Shown piece by piece: positions 21,862 through 37,793 of a DNA stretch of 64,000 bases; the first letter of the stretch is position 1; each line of letters begins with the position of its first letter. The stretch comes from Desulfomonile tiedjei (GTDB lineage: Bacteria > Desulfobacterota > Desulfomonilia > Desulfomonilales > Desulfomonilaceae). A program made the position numbers and the translations under genes. The DNA is taken from NCBI GenBank assembly GCA_016218715.1, contig JACRDG010000089.1, forward strand, positions 62,001-126,000. Reading direction: 5' to 3'. Under the pieces are notes generated by a model. It worked only from the letters and a program-made list of their open reading frames with translations. It had not been told where the DNA came from and searched no databases.

Positions 21862-22458
21862 TCAGTGGATTCTGGGACTTTTCCCTTTTGCGCTGTGCGC
21901 TTTCAGGAGCTCTACTACCTCAGTGTGTCTCATCGATGTAGCCCACATGAGAGCGGTCCAGCCGTTTCTGTCGGTGGCCTGGGTGTAGGCTCCGCGCTCC
22001 AGGAGTTCCCGAACCACGCCGGCATGCCCCTCGGCCGCAGCCATGATGAGTGCGGTTGCGCCATATTGATCCTGTTCTTCCAAGCTTGCGCCGTGATCGA
22101 CGAGGATCTTGACCACGTCCAAATAGCCGCGGCGGGCCGCCCTCATGAGAGCGGTCCACCCGAATTCGTCACCCGCGTTAACGTCCGCGCCTTCTTCGAG
22201 GAGGAGTTTCACGACCTCACCGAAACCGCGGCGTGATGCTTTCATGAGAGCGGTGGCACCATACTGGTCCACGGCGTCAGCCTGGGCGCCGCTCTTGAGG
22301 AGCATTTCGACGGCATCGGGGAACCCGTTGGCAGCCGCCCACATCAGGGGTGTCCATCCGAAGGCATCGCGAACTTCGGCGTCGGCCCCCGATGTCAACA
22401 GTGCTCTCAGCTCCGCCAGATTGCCCGACGTGGCCGCACTGAGAATCTTGTCGCTCAT
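21862..22458 (-). CDS. Ankyrin-repeat protein
   Basis: The ATG at 22458 (MSDKILSAATSGNLAEL) follows GGAGG by 8 bases, giving 198 residues. About five ankyrin repeats fill the chain, each with the pattern DxxGWTALMxAxxxGxxxxVxxLLxxGAdv. No enzymatic domain, membrane segment or signal is seen, so it is likely a cytoplasmic protein-binding module. It is the first gene after a consensus sigma-54 promoter (22644-22659) with a dyad upstream, and is followed by the beta-propeller gene. Confidence 0.92.
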   Translation of the reverse strand: MSDKILSAATSGNLAELRALLTSGADAEVRDAFGWTPLMWAAANGFPDAVEMLLKSGAQADAVDQYGATALMKASRRGFGEVVKLLLEEGADVNAGDEFGWTALMRAARRGYLDVVKILVDHGASLEEQDQYGATALIMAAAEGHAGVVRELLERGAYTQATDRNGWTALMWATSMRHTEVVELLKAHSAKGKSPRIH

Positions 22459-22643
22459 GGCAGTGTCCTCCTGAAGTTTCTGTCCGCCGCAGTAACGCGG
22501 CAATTTCGTTGGAACGTCTTGGAGGAGTCTCCTGCTCAGGGAGCCTCCTTCGAGAGTCATCGCGTTTTGACCGGCCCGACGAGCAAGGTACTCGCTGCAT
22601 CGGTATCTATCAGCCGGGAAGGTTCTCTTCTGTCCTTTGGTAA

Positions 22644-22659
22644 AGCAATCACCGTGCCA
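22644..22659 (-). promoter_or_regulatory. Sigma-54 promoter of the ankyrin/beta-propeller operon
   Basis: The minus strand reads TGGCACGGTGATTGCT, an exact match to TGGCACG-N4-TTGCW. It lies about 185 bp before the ankyrin start. Confidence 0.8.
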
Positions 22660-29210: not shown

Positions 29211-30365
29211 CTAAATCATTGCCGGCACGGCTTCGGCTTGGGCGGCTACACCTCCCATGACGATCTCTTTCTCCTCGGGTATCTCGGCGGTATCTCTCTG
29301 CTGGAGCCATTTTACTATCTTGGGTGCGAACTCCTTCTGGCATTTCCCGCTCACGTAGATTCCAATGTGTCCGGTATCGAGGCGCACGTCCTCCGTATCG
29401 GTGCTGCCGACGCGGCTGGTAAGCAGTTCGCAGGCGCCGGGTGGTACGAGGTGGTCGAAGCTCCCGTAAAAGTTCAGCACGGGCATGGTGATCTTCCCGA
29501 GATCGACCCGCCGGTCCCCAATCTCGAGCCTGTTCTTGATCAGGAGGTTCTGCTGGTACAAGTCCTTAATAAACTGGCGGAACGTTTCTCCCGGCACGTC
29601 CGGGCTGTCAAATATCCATTTTTCCATGCGGACGAAGTTTTCCACAAACGATCTGTCGTCCATGTGTTCCAGGAACCCCACGTACTTGTCAATCACCAGG
29701 CGGGCAGGATTCAAGAGGAGGAACCCGAAATTCATCATATCTCCCGGCATGTTGCCGAACGCGTCAACCAAGCGGTCCACGTCGAGGTGTCTCATCCAGA
29801 TATGCAGCAGCCCCTCGTCGGTATCGAAGTTCGTCGGGGTAACCGTCGTGATCAGGTTCTTGACTTTGTCCGGATGCAGAGCCGAATAGATGACGGAAAA
29901 AGTGCCGCCCATGCAGATGCCCATGAGGTTGATCGTGGGAACCTTGTGCTTTTTCCTGACAAAGTCCACGACATTGTCCATGTACCCATTCACGTGGTCG
30001 TCGATGGTCAGGAACTTGTCTTTGCGCGTGGGGTATCCCCAGTCGATCATGTATAGGTCTATCCCGGATTTCAGGAACGTCTGTACCACGCTCCTCCCAG
30101 GTTGGAGATCGAGCATGGTTTCCCGATTGATCAGGGCGTAAACGACGAGAAGCGGCGTTTTGAACCGAGTCTCCGCGATCGGGTAGTAGTGCTTCAGCTT
30201 CACCCGATCTTCCTGATAGACGACCTCGTACGGGGTCGTCGCTATGTCCGTGTGCAGAGGTTCGAGAAATACGTCGGAAGCCTTTTGAACCTTTTCCTGC
30301 GCCTTTTCCGCATCCTCAGCCAAACTCGCCAGAATAAGATCCACTCGAATTTTTGACTGCGTCAT
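29211..30365 (-). CDS. phaC: Class III poly(3-hydroxyalkanoate) synthase subunit PhaC
   Basis: The ATG at 30365 (MTQSKIRVD) follows GGGGG by 7 bases, giving 384 residues, in the usual class III range. The lipase-like box GICMGG carries the nucleophile Cys151. The acid is Asp in FYGSFDHLVPP and the base is His in LDTGHIG. It polymerises hydroxyacyl-CoA into storage polyester together with PhaE, encoded immediately upstream. No phaA, phaB or phasin gene is in the window, so monomer supply comes from elsewhere. Confidence 0.94.
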   Translation of the reverse strand: MTQSKIRVDLILASLAEDAEKAQEKVQKASDVFLEPLHTDIATTPYEVVYQEDRVKLKHYYPIAETRFKTPLLVVYALINRETMLDLQPGRSVVQTFLKSGIDLYMIDWGYPTRKDKFLTIDDHVNGYMDNVVDFVRKKHKVPTINLMGICMGGTFSVIYSALHPDKVKNLITTVTPTNFDTDEGLLHIWMRHLDVDRLVDAFGNMPGDMMNFGFLLLNPARLVIDKYVGFLEHMDDRSFVENFVRMEKWIFDSPDVPGETFRQFIKDLYQQNLLIKNRLEIGDRRVDLGKITMPVLNFYGSFDHLVPPGACELLTSRVGSTDTEDVRLDTGHIGIYVSGKCQKEFAPKIVKWLQQRDTAEIPEEKEIVMGGVAAQAEAVPAMI

Positions 30366-30426
30366 TATGCATCCCCCTTCTATCAGTAGCTTGGGGAGCG
30401 GATCGACCAAGGTATGTGCTATTCAG

Positions 30427-31350
30427 TCAATCGGGTTTCTCAGTTGCGGTCGCTCCGTTCCCGTCCTGGTTCTTTTCGAGTGCCTTGATTCTCTTCTTTA
30501 GGAGGTAAATTTCTCGGTAAAGTTCGTCCATCTCCTTCTGGCTGGGCACCGGGAGGGCTTGCATTGCATCCTGCAGAATCTCCTGCCTGGCCACCATATA
30601 GTCTCCCAGCGAATCCAGGATCCTCCTGAGAGTCTGGTTGTATTCCGGTGACTTGAAGAGGGTCATGTAGTGACCTTCCAGGATCTTCACCCAGATGCGA
30701 TAGTATTCTTTCGTTTTTTCCGGCAGCTCACCTCCTTCGGCCATTTGGGCTACCTGGTCTTGCAGGACTTTGAAGGACTTCTCCACGGGCAGGTAGAGGA
30801 GGGAAAAAAACTCGGCCATGGTCGTCTGGAAGATCTGGAACTTGTCCGCTCCTTGACTCAGTCGTTCCTGGTACGCACGGGTCAGTCCCAGTTGCGGAAC
30901 ATTGAGGAACTGCCTGAACTCACGCTCGTATATCTCGCGCCAGACCTTGAAGACATCTCGGTCTATGTCCTCATACTTGTATGCAGCGGTCGATTTTCCT
31001 ATGCGGCCGGCACGGTCCACCCATTCCCGCTGCATGTGGAAAAGTCCCTCCCATACAGGCTTTATAAGTTTAGACGCGATCTCGGGAAACGCGGCGATCC
31101 CGCGCATGGCCCCTTCGATCCCCTCGGGCTTCTCCATCACGGATGCCAGAACCTGGAACGACCTGAACATCGCTTCGTACGACTCCTGCATCCGGCCCGA
31201 TTGTGCGGCCCGGGAAGGGTCGGTGTTGCTCCCTTCGTCCGTCGCATGCGGCCAGAGCCGCATGGACGATTGCCAGAATTCCGAGGTGGCGTCCAACCAC
31301 ATTTCCAGGAGCGACTTAGTGCCGGCGTTACTCTGTCGGTCTTCGGTCAT
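30427..31350 (-). CDS. phaE: Class III PHA synthase subunit PhaE
   Basis: This 307-residue protein is the non-catalytic partner of class III PhaC. It is largely helical, with Trp/Phe-rich N-terminal residues (MWLDATSEFWQSSMRLW) and a C-terminal coiled coil (EMDELYREIYLLKKRIKALE). It has no enzyme motif, as expected. It lies 61 bp before phaC. The ATG at 31350 has a weak GGGTG-type ribosome binding site, and a sigma-54 consensus sits only 15 bp upstream, so the transcription start relative to this codon is unclear. Confidence 0.88.
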   Translation of the reverse strand: MTEDRQSNAGTKSLLEMWLDATSEFWQSSMRLWPHATDEGSNTDPSRAAQSGRMQESYEAMFRSFQVLASVMEKPEGIEGAMRGIAAFPEIASKLIKPVWEGLFHMQREWVDRAGRIGKSTAAYKYEDIDRDVFKVWREIYEREFRQFLNVPQLGLTRAYQERLSQGADKFQIFQTTMAEFFSLLYLPVEKSFKVLQDQVAQMAEGGELPEKTKEYYRIWVKILEGHYMTLFKSPEYNQTLRRILDSLGDYMVARQEILQDAMQALPVPSQKEMDELYREIYLLKKRIKALEKNQDGNGATATEKPD

Positions 31351-31788: not shown

Positions 31789-32841
31789 TCAGAGGGGGTC
31801 GGAGGGCACCAGTTCTGCGGTAGAAGGAGGGAGGGGTTTGCACGTCACGAGATAGTCCCCGTCGGGCAGCTTCACCGATCGGAACGCCACGGTAATTCGA
31901 TCCCCCTCTCTGAGGACGACCTCGAACGTTCGCAGTTCTCTCTCGCGGCCGTCGTTGACGCTGATGGCTTCCAGCCATTCCAGGACGGTTCCGTACGTCC
32001 TGTCGGTTTCCGGAAGAATTCTCGTGAACCACTCGGTTCCGTGCGGGAGGCTTTCCGAGTGCCAGCCGAACAGTTCTTTGAATTTGCCGTTCAGATAACG
32101 GAAGCCTCCTTCGGTGTCGATGACCGCTACGCCGAAGGGGATCTGTTCGGTCAACGCGTCGAATTTCCGTCTTGCATCGCGCAGGCTCTCTCGAGTACGT
32201 TCGTGCCGCGTGAGTTCTTTCTCAAGCCTGTCGGCGGTCGCCATCCGTTCCTCGGAGCTGTCCGACGCGAGTTTTTCCAGTTCCTCGAGCTTGCGCCTGA
32301 TCTGCTTCCAATCTCGCTGGTTGAGCAGGAGCTGGGTCCTCTCGGATGTGAGGTCTTCGACCAGAATCATCGTATATCGGTCCCGGCCGATCCTGATAGA
32401 ACTGAAGTGCAGACGACCCCACACTTTCTTAGTTTCAAATTCGAGGATCCCGTCTGCCACGTGCGGTTTTCGGGTTGAAAATACCCGTCTCAGGAGCAAC
32501 TGGGCTTTTTCCGCGTTGCGGGGTCGCGGGACGAGGGTAGCGAAAGGAACACCGCGCACTTTGTCATAATTGGGACTTATCTTACCGCAGGCGCGGTTGA
32601 CGAAGACGACCGAGTAGGAACCGTCCACCAGAAGCGTCGGAATCGGCAGAGCGTCCAGGAGCTTTCCGAAAGCTTCTATTGCGAGGATCCCCAGATCGAA
32701 GCTGCCGGAAGAGGTCAAGTCCGACGAAAACCATTGGTCGAGATCGACGGTTTGCGTACAAAGCTCGGTCTCGTCAGGAAGGGGCTCCGCGCACATGACA
32801 TGTTCCGGTGTGCTGGATACCTCGATTTCTTTGTCGATCAT
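31789..32841 (-). CDS. PAS-coiled-coil-PAS protein without output domain
   Basis: The ATG at 32841 (MIDKEIEV) follows AGGGACAGAGGA and gives about 350 residues; a GTG at 32868 is an alternative. PAS1 spans ~60-170, a heptad-like helix ~170-230 (NQRDWKQIRRKLEELEKL) and PAS2 ~230-345 (GVAVIDTEGGFRYLNGKFKELFGW). There is no kinase, cyclase, GGDEF or DNA-binding domain. It may sense a signal and act on a neighbour. The gene directly upstream on the same strand is the cNMP-AAA+-polyferredoxin fusion, 94 bp away. Confidence 0.8.
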   Translation of the reverse strand: MIDKEIEVSSTPEHVMCAEPLPDETELCTQTVDLDQWFSSDLTSSGSFDLGILAIEAFGKLLDALPIPTLLVDGSYSVVFVNRACGKISPNYDKVRGVPFATLVPRPRNAEKAQLLLRRVFSTRKPHVADGILEFETKKVWGRLHFSSIRIGRDRYTMILVEDLTSERTQLLLNQRDWKQIRRKLEELEKLASDSSEERMATADRLEKELTRHERTRESLRDARRKFDALTEQIPFGVAVIDTEGGFRYLNGKFKELFGWHSESLPHGTEWFTRILPETDRTYGTVLEWLEAISVNDGRERELRTFEVVLREGDRITVAFRSVKLPDGDYLVTCKPLPPSTAELVPSDPL

Positions 32842-32935
32842 TCCTCTGTCCCTTAGAATGCGCCACACCTGGACATCCTATGGTAATTTGTAACATTTCG
32901 GTCACAGTTCGTCAAGCCCGGACTGGCTCCCGATC

Positions 32936-35566
32936 CTACTGATAGAAAGCAGACTGGATACCCTCCAAGATCAAGGCCGCCATGATGGCTGCCGCTGCCG
33001 CATGCGGGAGCGATCCGAGCAGTGAGCGAACAAGCCCCTTTTGACTTGCTCGTCCCAGGCGGTAGACGATCATGAGGGTCCATGCCAAACCGGCAACCAC
33101 GAGCAGTACCTGCACGAAATGTGTGGTGGTGGGAGGAACTACGATCACCAGGTTCCGAAAGACCTCCATGCCGAGGGTCTGGCTCAGCAGGGCGGGCAAC
33201 TGAACCCCCAGATGAAGTAGGTAGTAGGTATGAAAGGCCATGAAGGAGGTCAGGGCTAACGGAATCAAAGCCAGGCCGTGACGGCAATAGTTTTCCTCGA
33301 AGGCATTGCCGTGAACCTTGCTGGAGACCGCTGATACGACCACCATCATAGCGTTCATGGCCAAGAGCATTCCCAGAAATACGATCGTGAAGTTGCCGAT
33401 CGGCTGGAACGGGAGGACAGCCATCAAGCGCCCCCACAGAGGGGCCTTGCTCAGCATTTCGCTCAGCAGGCCTCCGATCATGCCGATGACCAGAAACGCC
33501 GTACCAGTATTGGCCCTGCGCATCTCCCAGATCTCTCTGGCCGGAATACGGAGATTCAGGGCTATTGCGTCGTGCGGGCAGTTCTTGACACAGATGCCGC
33601 AGAGTTTGCACACGCGATTGCTGTCAAGTCTCGGCACGGTCTGACCGAAGGGACACCCGGGCCGGTCCCCTGTCCCGGTGTAGCACTCGGTGGATCGGCA
33701 ATGGGTCATGCATACGCTCCGATCCGCACGCAATTCCACGATCGACGCCTTGGCCGCAACGCCGACCATCCCACCCATCCCGCACAGATGTTGACACCAC
33801 GTCTCCCGCTCGAATATGACCGCGGCAGCAATAGCGGACCCGAGCATCGCAAGCAACAGGAACCCAAGATTGGCAGGCGAATCCCTGATCTTCGTGGCGG
33901 TCTCGAACCAGATTACGGACAGTACGGCCGCGGCGATGAGAAAATCGCTCCGCTCCTTGAGGAAATCCGGGAAAGGCAATTCGAAGGAGACGACCTTCTT
34001 CGCGAGGCGACTCAGGGCGGCGATAGGACACAGCGAGCACCAGAAACGAGCCCACAAGAACGCGCCCAGGATCAGACCGGGCCAACCCACAGCCCAGGCA
34101 AAAAGCGCGGCAGGGTTGTTCATGGGGTCCGCGGGGCCGAGAAACAAGAGCGCCACCACGATGAGAAAGAGCGGCACCGCTGCGCTCTGGAGGATCGCCG
34201 GATAGAGCGGGCTCAACAGCACTCTCTTGATCGGTTTGAACTTGAGGAGATTGTACTTGCCTCGACTGTCTGCCGTCTTGAGATCGAAGTAAAGGTCCTT
34301 CGGTCTGAGCACTCCTCCCATAGAGATGAGAACCGCTCGCCTGAGTGTGTTGGCAAGCTCCATGTCGTTCCCCGGCCAAGAATGCGCGACCAATAGGCGG
34401 CGGGTTTCTTCCGGGACTTCCACCATGCCTTTGCCGAACTCCTTGCTGTACTTGCCGACGTAGTGGTCGATCAGGTCGGGTATTTCTCCGCAGCGGTTCC
34501 TCAAAGGCGGAATCGCGATGGATCGCTCGGAAAGGCCATGGATCAGTGGGTATTGCGCTCCGTCGATCTCCACGGGGGGGTACCGAGTGGTGAGGATGAG
34601 TCGCAGCCTCGCCTTTATCGAAGCGCTGCCGCGGAATCGTCGAAAGGTACCAGTCTTGATCACGGTGACCAGTGCCTCTTGCACGGCGCGGGTGAGGAGA
34701 TGAGCGCCCCGAATCAGGAGGGTACCTTCCTCGCTCAGGTCCAGGTAACCCGGAACCTCTCGCGTTGTCCCGTCGTGGGTTATCTCTTCCGAACCGAACA
34801 GGAGACGCATTTGTCCCGCGGTCGCGTCTGCGTCGGGTTGGTCGGGTTCCCGGTCGGGGTAGCGGACGAAGCGTTGCGCGCGCGGGCTGAAGAGATCGAG
34901 CTGGAGAAATATCCCCTTGTAATCTTGGCTCTCACCATAGATCGAGTGCGCGACGTACTCTTTGCCCACCCCACTCTCCCCGACTATCAGCACCGGTCCG
35001 TCGGTGTGAGCCAACTCCTCAACGCGAGCGGTCAGGCGGCTGCGAACGTAATCGCTGAGGACATAGTCGGGAAACACGCGCTCTTGGGGGCTAATGAGTG
35101 ACTGGAGCAATTGTTTCTTGCGGCGGCTTTCAAACAAGGTTCGGTGAAGTCGCATTATCCGGTCGGTCAGGTCATCGACCAGCCTGGACGAAAGCTCCGG
35201 ATAACCCGCCAGAAGATCCCGGAAGCGCTCCGCAGAGATCTCGAGCACCTCGCTTCGCTGAGCAGCGACCAGCGCAGCGTCGGGCCAGGAAAGGTCCGCG
35301 CCGACGAAACGGGTACCGCCGAAGAGGTCCCAGGGGCCCAGATGGTCCACCGCGACCTCGCGATGATCCCGGTCCTGCACCAGGACGGTCGCGGCGCCGG
35401 AAACCATGAGCCACACTCGCTCGTGGCCCTCGTTGGAGACCGCGATCAACGCTCCCGCCTCGTGTTGCCGTACAACCCCCGCCTGAAACAGGAGGTGCTG
35501 AAGGTCTTCAGGAAAAGGCTCGGGCGGCCTTGCCGACCTATCGCTGTGGCTGGAGATCCTGGTCAT
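32936..35566 (-). CDS. Fusion of cNMP-binding domain, degenerate sigma-54-type AAA+ domain and membrane polyferredoxin
   Basis: From the ATG at 35566 the protein has 876 residues (GTG at 35578 is an alternative; neither has a clear ribosome binding site). Residues ~20-130 form a CRP-like cyclic-nucleotide-binding domain. Residues ~165-430 are an NtrC-type AAA+ domain with Walker A GESGVGKE (196-203), but the GAFTGA loop is absent (LLFGSEEITHDGTTR at 255-269) and Walker B Asp-Glu is replaced (TLLIRGAH). From ~450 there are about eight membrane segments of NapH/CcoG type with WCSLCP (510-513), WCQHLCG (591-595), Cys619/623/628/638 and a [4Fe-4S] motif CKLCGICVKNCP (653-663). It may couple a cytosolic signal to membrane electron flow. 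A nucleotide cyclase gene lies just upstream, divergent. Confidence 0.88.
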   Translation of the reverse strand: MTRISSHSDRSARPPEPFPEDLQHLLFQAGVVRQHEAGALIAVSNEGHERVWLMVSGAATVLVQDRDHREVAVDHLGPWDLFGGTRFVGADLSWPDAALVAAQRSEVLEISAERFRDLLAGYPELSSRLVDDLTDRIMRLHRTLFESRRKKQLLQSLISPQERVFPDYVLSDYVRSRLTARVEELAHTDGPVLIVGESGVGKEYVAHSIYGESQDYKGIFLQLDLFSPRAQRFVRYPDREPDQPDADATAGQMRLLFGSEEITHDGTTREVPGYLDLSEEGTLLIRGAHLLTRAVQEALVTVIKTGTFRRFRGSASIKARLRLILTTRYPPVEIDGAQYPLIHGLSERSIAIPPLRNRCGEIPDLIDHYVGKYSKEFGKGMVEVPEETRRLLVAHSWPGNDMELANTLRRAVLISMGGVLRPKDLYFDLKTADSRGKYNLLKFKPIKRVLLSPLYPAILQSAAVPLFLIVVALLFLGPADPMNNPAALFAWAVGWPGLILGAFLWARFWCSLCPIAALSRLAKKVVSFELPFPDFLKERSDFLIAAAVLSVIWFETATKIRDSPANLGFLLLAMLGSAIAAAVIFERETWCQHLCGMGGMVGVAAKASIVELRADRSVCMTHCRSTECYTGTGDRPGCPFGQTVPRLDSNRVCKLCGICVKNCPHDAIALNLRIPAREIWEMRRANTGTAFLVIGMIGGLLSEMLSKAPLWGRLMAVLPFQPIGNFTIVFLGMLLAMNAMMVVVSAVSSKVHGNAFEENYCRHGLALIPLALTSFMAFHTYYLLHLGVQLPALLSQTLGMEVFRNLVIVVPPTTTHFVQVLLVVAGLAWTLMIVYRLGRASQKGLVRSLLGSLPHAAAAAIMAALILEGIQSAFYQ

Positions 35567-35606
35567 GAATTGGAGCACGTTCCGATGCGCAGGGAGAGCT
35601 GCGATG

Positions 35607-35808
35607 CTAGGAGGCTGTTGCGTAACGCAATGCTTTCCGGAAACCCTAGCACGATGGTATCGATTTCGACAGAGCTTCGTCGATGCCGCTACCTGAAAAG
35701 CTTAGTGTGTCAGCCTCATAGGAGCCTCCCGACCGAAAACGAGGGTGTGATTATGCGCGGATCTGCCATCATTTCTCCGATGTGACAGGTTACGCAACGG
35801 GCTCCTAG
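35607..35808. mobile_element. 202-bp MITE-like element with 20-bp terminal inverted repeats
   Basis: The left end CTAGGAGGCTGTTGCGTAAC (35607-35626) and right end GTTACGCAACGGGCTCCTAG (35789-35808) are inverted copies with two mismatches. The left end also contains the palindrome TTGCGTAACGCAA. No transposase is inside. The ends resemble those of some insertion sequences with a GGCTGTTGC terminus; a parent element is not in the window. Confidence 0.65.
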
Positions 35809-35892
35809 ACTGTTCCCGGGACTGCCGACGCCACCGAGCGCATGGTTCGCCAGCAGAGGTCCTACCCGCAGAACCGAAGCTGGGAAAGAAAT

Positions 35893-35923
35893 TTGCACCC
35901 GCCCGGCAGCGTTATTGTATACT
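35893..35923 (+). promoter_or_regulatory. Possible sigma-70 promoter for the cyclase gene
   Basis: TTGCAC (35893-35898) and TATACT (35918-35923) are separated by 19 bp, longer than ideal, about 215 bp before the start codon. Confidence 0.25.
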
Positions 35924-36137
35924 CGCCACGGCACGGGGTCAATCGGCTATAGCAGGTTGGGGCGGTTGAGGGCAAAGGGAGCCTTTGCCTTCACTCTTTT
36001 ATACTCATGTGCGATCATGCGGACAGGAGGAACTGTATTCGATAACTCACCGACGCGGCGGCGAGGGTTCCGTGACGACGAGAAAGTCCTGGTCTGGCCG
36101 GTCTCCAGCCGGTCCGGACCTACGGAGAGCAAGACAC

Positions 36138-37793
36138 ATGGACGATGCGAGAATCTCACTGGCGATCAACCGTTTGAAGGTCGTACCGGCCATCAACCTG
36201 GTCGGCAACTTGGTCGGCGCTGCGGTCACTTTTGCCTGGTTCGCCATTATCAGGCCAGGATTCGTACCGGGCGCGGAATCTGCCGACTTTCACGCGAAGA
36301 TGGTCTTTTTCGGTCTGTCCATCATCTTCTTTATGGCCGCGGTGGCTCCAGTCAACATGAGTTGGTGGCGAGCGACGATCCGGAACCTGCGAAATCTGCC
36401 ACGTCACGAAAGCGGCAGGTCTCTTTCCGGAGCGGAGGTCCATAAGCTCGCCGGGGTTGCCGGTGAGATCGTGGATCTCCCTGTGAAATTGGTGTCCACG
36501 TCGTCCGTAGGCTGGGTGTTGTGCGGATTGGCCTTTTTCGCATTGCCCGCCCTGTCCCCGGCTTTGCTCCCCTGGGATGCTTGTTCCATACGGAAAATGG
36601 GCGTGTGGGTGATCTTCGCGGGAGCCCCCACCACGGCGGCCTTCACGTTCTTGCTCCAGGAGCGGTGGCTGAGGTCCACGATCGTGAAGACGTTTCCTCC
36701 AGAGGCCTTGCGGAAGGTGTCCGGATCTTTCAAAATCAACGTTCTCCCGAAGATGCTGGGGGTAACGCTGCTGGTCGGCACGTTGCCCGCTGCAATCATC
36801 AGTCACACCACGCTTGAACAGATTCATGAAATTCAGGCAAACCCGGAGTTGCTATCGACTTTCCTCACGCAGATGCCGCTTGCCATTGGCTTCCTCTTGA
36901 TGTTGGCGATCGCCCTGGCCATCGGCTTGGCGGTATTCATGGCCAAGAGCGTGTCCGAACCGCTGCAAACGGTGGGCGCTTCCATGGAGATGGTGGGGAC
37001 GGGAAATCTCACAGTGAGCGTTCCCGTCGTCTGCAACGACGAGATCGGAGCTCTGGCAGAGGGCTTCAACCGCATGCTGGATGATTACCGGAAGCTGGAG
37101 TCCGTGAGAGATACCTTTGGACGTTACGTCAGCACGGAAGTCGTCACGGAGATCCTCAAGTCGCCCGCAGGGGTCAAACTCGGGGGTGAATTGCGGGACA
37201 TGACCGTCCTCGTCGCCGATCTGCGCGGGTTCACCCGCCTGACCGAGGCCCTCGACCCTCAGACCGTGCTGGAGATCCTCAACCGTTTCCTGGAGAGCAT
37301 GACAGAGATCATCATGAAGCACGGCGGGACCATCGACGAGTTTACCGGGGACGGCATCCTCGTGTTTTTCGGTGCGCCGCGCAACCTGCCGGATCACGCA
37401 CTCTGCGCGGTGGCCTGTGCGGTGGAGATGCAGGAGGCCCTCAGTACCTTGAACAGGGAAGGGGACCGCCTGGGGTTGCCGGCACTCGGGATGGGGATCG
37501 GAATTAATTGCGGGGAATTGGTGGTGGGAAACATAGGCTGCGAAAAACGCAGGAAATACGGTGCGCTGGGTACTGCGATCAATGTCGCTTTCCGGGTCGA
37601 AGCGCTTACCCAGGCGGGGGAGATTCTCCTGACCGCGACCGTGCATGACAAGCTCGCGGGAATACTTAATGTATCTGCCACGCGAGAGGTCAGCCTCAAG
37701 GGGATAGAAACCCCGGTGACACTGTACCAGGTCCTCGGGCTGCGTGCCCAAGACTGGCCATCACAGCGGAAGGCGGGAACGGCCGCCTGCTGA
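36138..37793 (+). CDS. Class III adenylate/guanylate cyclase with membrane N-terminus and HAMP linker
   Basis: I choose the ATG at 36138 (MDDARISLAIN; GGAG about 10 bases upstream), giving 551 residues. Several membrane segments fill the first ~280 residues (for example ~17-38 and ~56-70), then a HAMP-like segment (~285-335). The cyclase domain is at ~350-520, with metal-binding Asp in VADLRGFTRL and FTGDGILVFFG and the usual NCGELVVGNIG strand. It makes cyclic AMP or GMP from NTP; substrate residues were not assigned. It is divergent from the cNMP-domain fusion protein, a likely receptor. Confidence 0.9.
   Translation: MDDARISLAINRLKVVPAINLVGNLVGAAVTFAWFAIIRPGFVPGAESADFHAKMVFFGLSIIFFMAAVAPVNMSWWRATIRNLRNLPRHESGRSLSGAEVHKLAGVAGEIVDLPVKLVSTSSVGWVLCGLAFFALPALSPALLPWDACSIRKMGVWVIFAGAPTTAAFTFLLQERWLRSTIVKTFPPEALRKVSGSFKINVLPKMLGVTLLVGTLPAAIISHTTLEQIHEIQANPELLSTFLTQMPLAIGFLLMLAIALAIGLAVFMAKSVSEPLQTVGASMEMVGTGNLTVSVPVVCNDEIGALAEGFNRMLDDYRKLESVRDTFGRYVSTEVVTEILKSPAGVKLGGELRDMTVLVADLRGFTRLTEALDPQTVLEILNRFLESMTEIIMKHGGTIDEFTGDGILVFFGAPRNLPDHALCAVACAVEMQEALSTLNREGDRLGLPALGMGIGINCGELVVGNIGCEKRRKYGALGTAINVAFRVEALTQAGEILLTATVHDKLAGILNVSATREVSLKGIETPVTLYQVLGLRAQDWPSQRKAGTAAC

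Follow-up and report, generated by a model that had tools for sequence, protein, structure and literature searches.

The bEBPs of the NtrC family, such as Aquifex NtrC1 (1ny5), follow the order of input domain, AAA+ domain and DNA-binding output, and their AAA+ fold with its lid carries the Walker A, PPLR and WPGN motifs as well as GAFTGA, the Walker B pair [D/N]E and an arginine finger. Among membrane electron-transfer proteins, NapH, NosR and RdhC have in common a four-segment membrane module with two CX3CP motifs (PMC5928378). In NosR this module is paired with a separate head, and the heads of NosR and of RdhC/PceC are exocytoplasmic FMN domains. The cAMP receptors CRP and Vfr consist of a CRP-like beta-barrel domain, in which a Glu and an Arg hold the ligand, and an HTH.

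The protein described here resembles each of these systems in a part of its length. It is encoded by Desulfomonile tiedjei (assembly GCA_016218715.1, contig JACRDG010000089.1, positions 62,001-126,000 of the forward strand), in a stretch of 64,000 nt that was analysed as a whole and is referred to below as the window; all coordinates are counted within it. The fusion ORF, the product of which we call the window protein, occupies positions 32936-35578 of the minus strand and comprises 880 uninterrupted codons, counted from a putative GTG start. In the original prediction the gene ended at 35566, where an in-frame ATG, four codons inward, is an alternative start; the longest frame extends to the GTG at 35578. 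The Pfam domains of the window protein are, in order, cNMP_binding, Sigma54_activat, AAA_lid_14, Fer4_5 and Fer4. Judged by its sequence, the protein is a sigma-54-type regulator whose DNA-binding output appears to have been replaced by a membrane polyferredoxin, and it represents an undescribed protein family. The features of the locus are as follows.

32936-35578, minus strand: ORF of the fusion protein, 880 aa, intact, with the same domain order in paralogues and orthologues
35207-35470, minus strand: CRP-like domain (cNMP_binding), residues 37-124 (Pfam E 9.1e-9; alignment with Vfr)
34502-35038, minus strand: degenerate NtrC-type AAA+ domain, residues 181-359 (Pfam; predicted fold similar to NtrC1, 1ny5)
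34961-34981, minus strand: Walker A motif GESGVGK, residues 200-206, kept (AAA+ alignment)
34766-34783, minus strand: position of GAFTGA (L1 loop), here ITHDGT, residues 266-271, motif lost (AAA+ alignment)
34706-34717, minus strand: position of Walker B FLDE, here LIRG, residues 288-291, motif lost (AAA+ alignment)
34262-34501, minus strand: AAA_lid_14, residues 360-439, sensor II Arg lost (GNDMEL) (Pfam and alignment)
32939-34258, minus strand: membrane module of the polyferredoxin type (residues 441-880) with some ten hydrophobic segments and without an HTH (Pfam, NapH profile, hydropathy)
34028-34039, minus strand: Cys motif 1, C514-x2-C517-P, after hydrophobic segment 2 (alignment)
33782-33796, minus strand: Cys motif 2, C595-x3-C599, after hydrophobic segment 4 (alignment)
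33653-33712, minus strand: Cys motif 3, C623-x3-C627-x4-C632-x9-C642 (alignment)
33578-33610, minus strand: Cys motif 4, ferredoxin-type, C657-x2-C660-x2-C663-x3-C667 (Pfam and alignment)
35985-37793, plus strand: membrane protein with HAMP and class III nucleotide cyclase domains, divergent neighbour (Pfam; comparison with Cya2)
31789-32868, minus strand: protein with two PAS domains, no output domain found, downstream of the fusion gene (ORF list and Pfam)

The fusion is not confined to this locus. The same genome encodes a second full-length fusion (G000 C4; L036), which is 46% identical to the window protein, and a third copy, lacking its N-terminus, at the start of contig C19 (L037); the missing part may be the CRP-like fragment with which contig C38 (L038) ends. 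Counted with the window copy, this makes three fusion copies in one genome, the third of them cut by a contig end. Five relatives with 36-51% identity come from a deltaproteobacterial MAG, Desulfomonile tiedjei and a Syntrophaceae MAG. Within the phylum, 297 genomes from 199 genera were sampled, and strong matches (E 1e-60 or better), nearly all of them full-length, are present in 15 genomes that belong to 13 genera. Outside the phylum, the full-length fusion resides on two cyanobacterial plasmids, one of Pseudanabaena galeata and one of Aulosira laxa, and the same Pfam domain order was confirmed in the Aulosira copy. Since paralogues and many other genomes have conserved the fusion, a chance joining of its parts is excluded. 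The three-part arrangement of CRP-like, AAA+ and membrane regions is thus real: the ORF is intact, and the identical order in two paralogues of the same genome and in other genomes leads us to reject a frameshift or an assembly artefact. With this, the fusion also stands against the doubts that the original prediction had itself raised, namely a frameshift or orthologues that are encoded separately. In line with the original prediction, our searches found no characterised protein of this order, and the literature searched, which left most subscription journals outside its coverage, contains no description of this domain combination. While the parts are known, their combination, the conserved loss of AAA+ catalysis and the spread of the family were not found described there.

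The AAA+ domain of the window protein matches the Sigma54_activat family (PF00158) with 61.9 bits against a cut-off of 20.2, the best stretch being residues 181-228, and the predicted head is similar in structure to NtrC1 (1ny5; Z 24.2, rmsd 3.2, 244 residues aligned). Comparison of 26 fusion AAA+ domains with those of 25 bEBPs from the window protein's own genome, taken as an internal control, indicates which motifs have been lost. The Walker A Lys is present in 25 of the 26 fusions, whereas GAFTGA (close variants allowed), the acidic Walker B pair [D/N]E and the arginine finger occur in none of them and in all 25 bEBPs; the sensor II Arg, also found in every bEBP, is kept in three fusions. 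In the window protein, REDLYYR is changed to QYPLIHG and GNVREL to GNDMEL. The presence of Walker A (GESGVGK) and the absence of GAFTGA and of the Walker B Asp-Glu (ITHDGT and LIRG), as originally noted for this protein, are properties of a family in which neither of the latter two is found in any of the 26 members. The PPLR and WPGN motifs of the lid are conserved, as is the Walker A Lys, while the other motifs vary among the fusions. The fusion protein thus has the AAA+ fold, the lid and the Walker A, PPLR and WPGN motifs in common with the NtrC-family bEBPs, but differs from them in the lack of GAFTGA, the Walker B pair, the arginine finger and an HTH, and in the possession of a membrane module.

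This motif pattern fits a domain that may have kept nucleotide binding without hydrolysis. Three of the 26 members have an impaired Walker A motif (GELGTEK, GEPGTWK and GETGVGT), so that nucleotide binding is not universal in the family. Remnants of the old loop in two distant members (GTFATA and GAIPSA) suggest that the AAA+ domain of the fusions derives from a working bEBP. In an unrooted tree of 51 AAA+ domains, one branch (support 99/97) separates the fusions from the bEBPs, a grouping compatible with a single origin.

No DNA-binding domain was detected by Pfam in the window protein and ten relatives (11 members scanned), as is likewise the case for some working bEBPs. The lid leads straight into the membrane module, and the polyferredoxin takes the place of the DNA-binding domain. 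We therefore reject the function of a sigma-54 activator for a protein in which the contact loop, Walker B and the arginine finger are lost and no HTH is present. The argument against transcription activation that had been drawn from the loss of the contact loop is in this way strengthened by the absence of a DNA-binding domain.

According to the hydropathy scan of the C-terminal half, about ten segments from residue 462 on could plausibly span the membrane; one more, at 598-616, is doubtful and shares residues with a Cys motif. Fer4_5 is matched at residues 493-536, and Fer4, slightly below the Pfam cut-off, near residues 657-672. The several Cys clusters predicted for the membrane part amount to 12 Cys in four motifs, the last of the ferredoxin type (514, 517, 595, 599, 623, 627, 632, 642, 657, 660, 663 and 667), each conserved in 29 or all 30 of the aligned rows (for two of them, in 29 of 29). 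Such conservation of the Cys across almost the whole family means that the redox half is under selection. From their pattern, about three [4Fe-4S]-type sites are predicted at the cytoplasmic face. In the Cys region, two structure predictions have pLDDT values mostly under 50, and a PDB fold search with the full model, of low confidence there, returned almost only AAA+ matches.

The nearest curated family is NapH/MauN (TIGR02163), the weak match to which (27.2 bits, E 2.6e-6) covers the ferredoxin part and lies far under the NCBIfam cut-off of 213.05 bits. Like NapH, the fusion has two Cys motifs between transmembrane segments in addition to the ferredoxin Cys, but it has about four or more additional C-terminal hydrophobic segments and a signalling head. 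The location of its Cys motifs after hydrophobic segments 2 and 4 fits that in the module of NapH, NosR and RdhC, but motif 1 is of the form CX2CP, with two residues between C514 and C517 instead of three, and motif 2 is of the form CX3C, with G after C599 in the window protein and P at this position in many relatives. NosR likewise combines a separate head with its electron-transfer module. However, the Pfam scan found no FMN-binding domain in the window protein, and its CRP-like and AAA+ head is expected to be cytoplasmic, unlike the exocytoplasmic heads of NosR and RdhC/PceC.

The N-terminal domain matches PF00027 (cNMP_binding) with 35.6 bits against a cut-off of 27.5 and Vfr with E 2.3e-7. 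Although it has the signature of the CRP-like fold, it carries FGG where cyclic-nucleotide receptors have FGE, and the phosphate-binding Arg is absent from it as well as from most close relatives. As the Glu and Arg that hold the ligand are missing, the description of this domain as a cNMP sensor is not supported, and the binding of a cyclic nucleotide by the window protein is doubtful. Both residues of the phosphate-binding cassette are kept in certain distant members (L023/L049, L026/L052 and L027/L053; e.g., FGEMALLTGAPRSAS), some of which are likely to bind cyclic nucleotides. The N-terminal inputs differ between members, being according to Pfam the CRP-like domain alone or with GAF (L046, L048) or FHA (L047), while the core of AAA+ domain and polyferredoxin is constant across relatives.

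The divergent cyclase encoded next to the fusion gene is a possible functional partner of the fusion, and the two-PAS protein is a possible operon partner. The cyclase is closest to the Synechocystis guanylyl cyclase Cya2, the Glu of which specifies GTP and the E488K variant of which is an adenylate cyclase (PMC5995499). Since the window cyclase carries this Glu, in the motif GGTIDEF, it is predicted to make cGMP rather than cAMP. A second class III cyclase gene, with Lys at the position of the GTP-specifying Glu, is located divergently 318 bp from a distant member (L049). Class III cyclase domains number 12 in the window genome and four in the L049 genome; if about one gene per kb is assumed, about 0.06 adjacent cyclases are expected over all members examined and two were seen (Poisson ~0.002, counted after the cases had been seen), so that chance is an unlikely cause of both neighbours. 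The FHA-bearing member (L047, 7766-12740) is followed 44 bp downstream by a gene for a Ser/Thr kinase with TPR repeats, and selA is located near one member. Each of the two cyanobacterial plasmid copies (L032, L033) is directly upstream of a cysteine synthase gene, with rhodanese, DsrE, glutaredoxin or Rieske genes around them, surroundings which hint at sulfur or redox metabolism. A neighbour in L053 (5200-7368) encodes a protein with HAMP, PAS and RNase T-type exonuclease domains. A single conserved operon that would name the electron partner was not found; the neighbouring genes vary among genomes, and no partner can be named for this reason.

In the window itself, a pair of genes for class III polyhydroxyalkanoate synthase, PhaE and PhaC, lies downstream of both the fusion gene and the gene for the PAS protein (29211-31350, minus strand). 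No sigma-54 promoter match is listed within 35579-35984, before the fusion gene. An exact sigma-54 promoter consensus, TGGCACGGTGATTGCT, is located at 22644-22659 (minus strand), about 84 bases upstream of the ORF 21862-22560 (minus strand).

Our favoured reading, to which we tentatively give a little under half of our confidence, is that of a signal-gated electron-transfer protein in which the ATPase-dead bEBP head serves as transmission. The N-terminal part would receive a signal in the form of a ligand bound by the CRP-like domain, be it a cyclic nucleotide or some other molecule; relatives would receive signals through GAF or FHA inputs as well. The AAA+ core would bind ATP, or sense ATP/ADP, without hydrolysis and would act as a conformational and oligomerisation switch, which in turn would open or close an electron path through the predicted iron-sulfur sites, linking the quinone pool to a partner that is either soluble or in the membrane. 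Because bEBPs have their output after the AAA+ domain, the polyferredoxin is the output by position, and the domain order in relatives favours gating over the sensing of electron transfer.

The main rival to gating is a redox-controlled anti-activator, with the flow of information reversed: the polyferredoxin would sense the redox state of the membrane, and the dead AAA+ head would mix with NtrC-type activators, holding them at the membrane or releasing them in a manner comparable to NifL or PspA. The genes directly upstream of two paralogous members (L012 and L040), on the same strand, accord with such a role, as they encode a histidine kinase together with a response regulator of the NtrC type that is intact, GAFTGA, FLDE and REDLYYR all being kept, and so does the presence of sigma-54 in all 15 fusion genomes of the phylum. 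However, this two-component pair adjoins some members only, and the GAF and FHA inputs are N-terminal, as in proteins that receive signals. The occurrence of the fusion on cyanobacterial plasmids argues further against a general role of this kind; to our knowledge, sigma-54 is absent from cyanobacteria, and a sigma-54 search gave no match in Synechococcus elongatus, the sole cyanobacterium seen among the control genomes. On balance, we consider the reversed flow rather unlikely.

Also unlikely, in our estimation, is a protein of the NapH/NosR/CcoG kind that acts constitutively in electron transfer or maturation and whose head is a structural or oligomerising relic. The membrane half does stand alone in Deinococcus ficus and Natronorubrum, where it is of a separate, shorter kind, and the head of the window protein lacks both the cNMP ligands and the AAA+ catalytic motifs. 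Nevertheless, the conservation of the Walker A Lys, PPLR and WPGN and the new addition of input domains in relatives would be unexpected of a relic. A membrane-anchored transcription regulator independent of sigma-54 is highly improbable, since the GAFTGA-less NtrC proteins of Caulobacter and Rhodobacter capsulatus, which share the loss of the sigma-54 contact loop and show that such regulators can act at sigma-70 promoters (PMC10274813), are transcription factors, whereas no DNA-binding domain occurs among the 11 Pfam-scanned members of the fusion family and their lid joins the membrane module directly.

To return to the gating of electron transfer, we regard it as possible, if somewhat doubtful, that the flow of electrons in the membrane is under the direct control of second-messenger, phosphopeptide or GAF signals, within one protein, through an ATP-binding but non-hydrolysing core of the bEBP type, with neither transcription nor phosphorylation of a redox enzyme being involved. 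Members of the family are deposited in databases under names like 'nitrogen assimilation regulatory protein', and the family is spread widely enough for study. If the proposed mechanism is true, these proteins would connect cell signals directly to membrane electron transport, and an AAA+ transcription motor, having lost its motor function, would have been reused as a switch.
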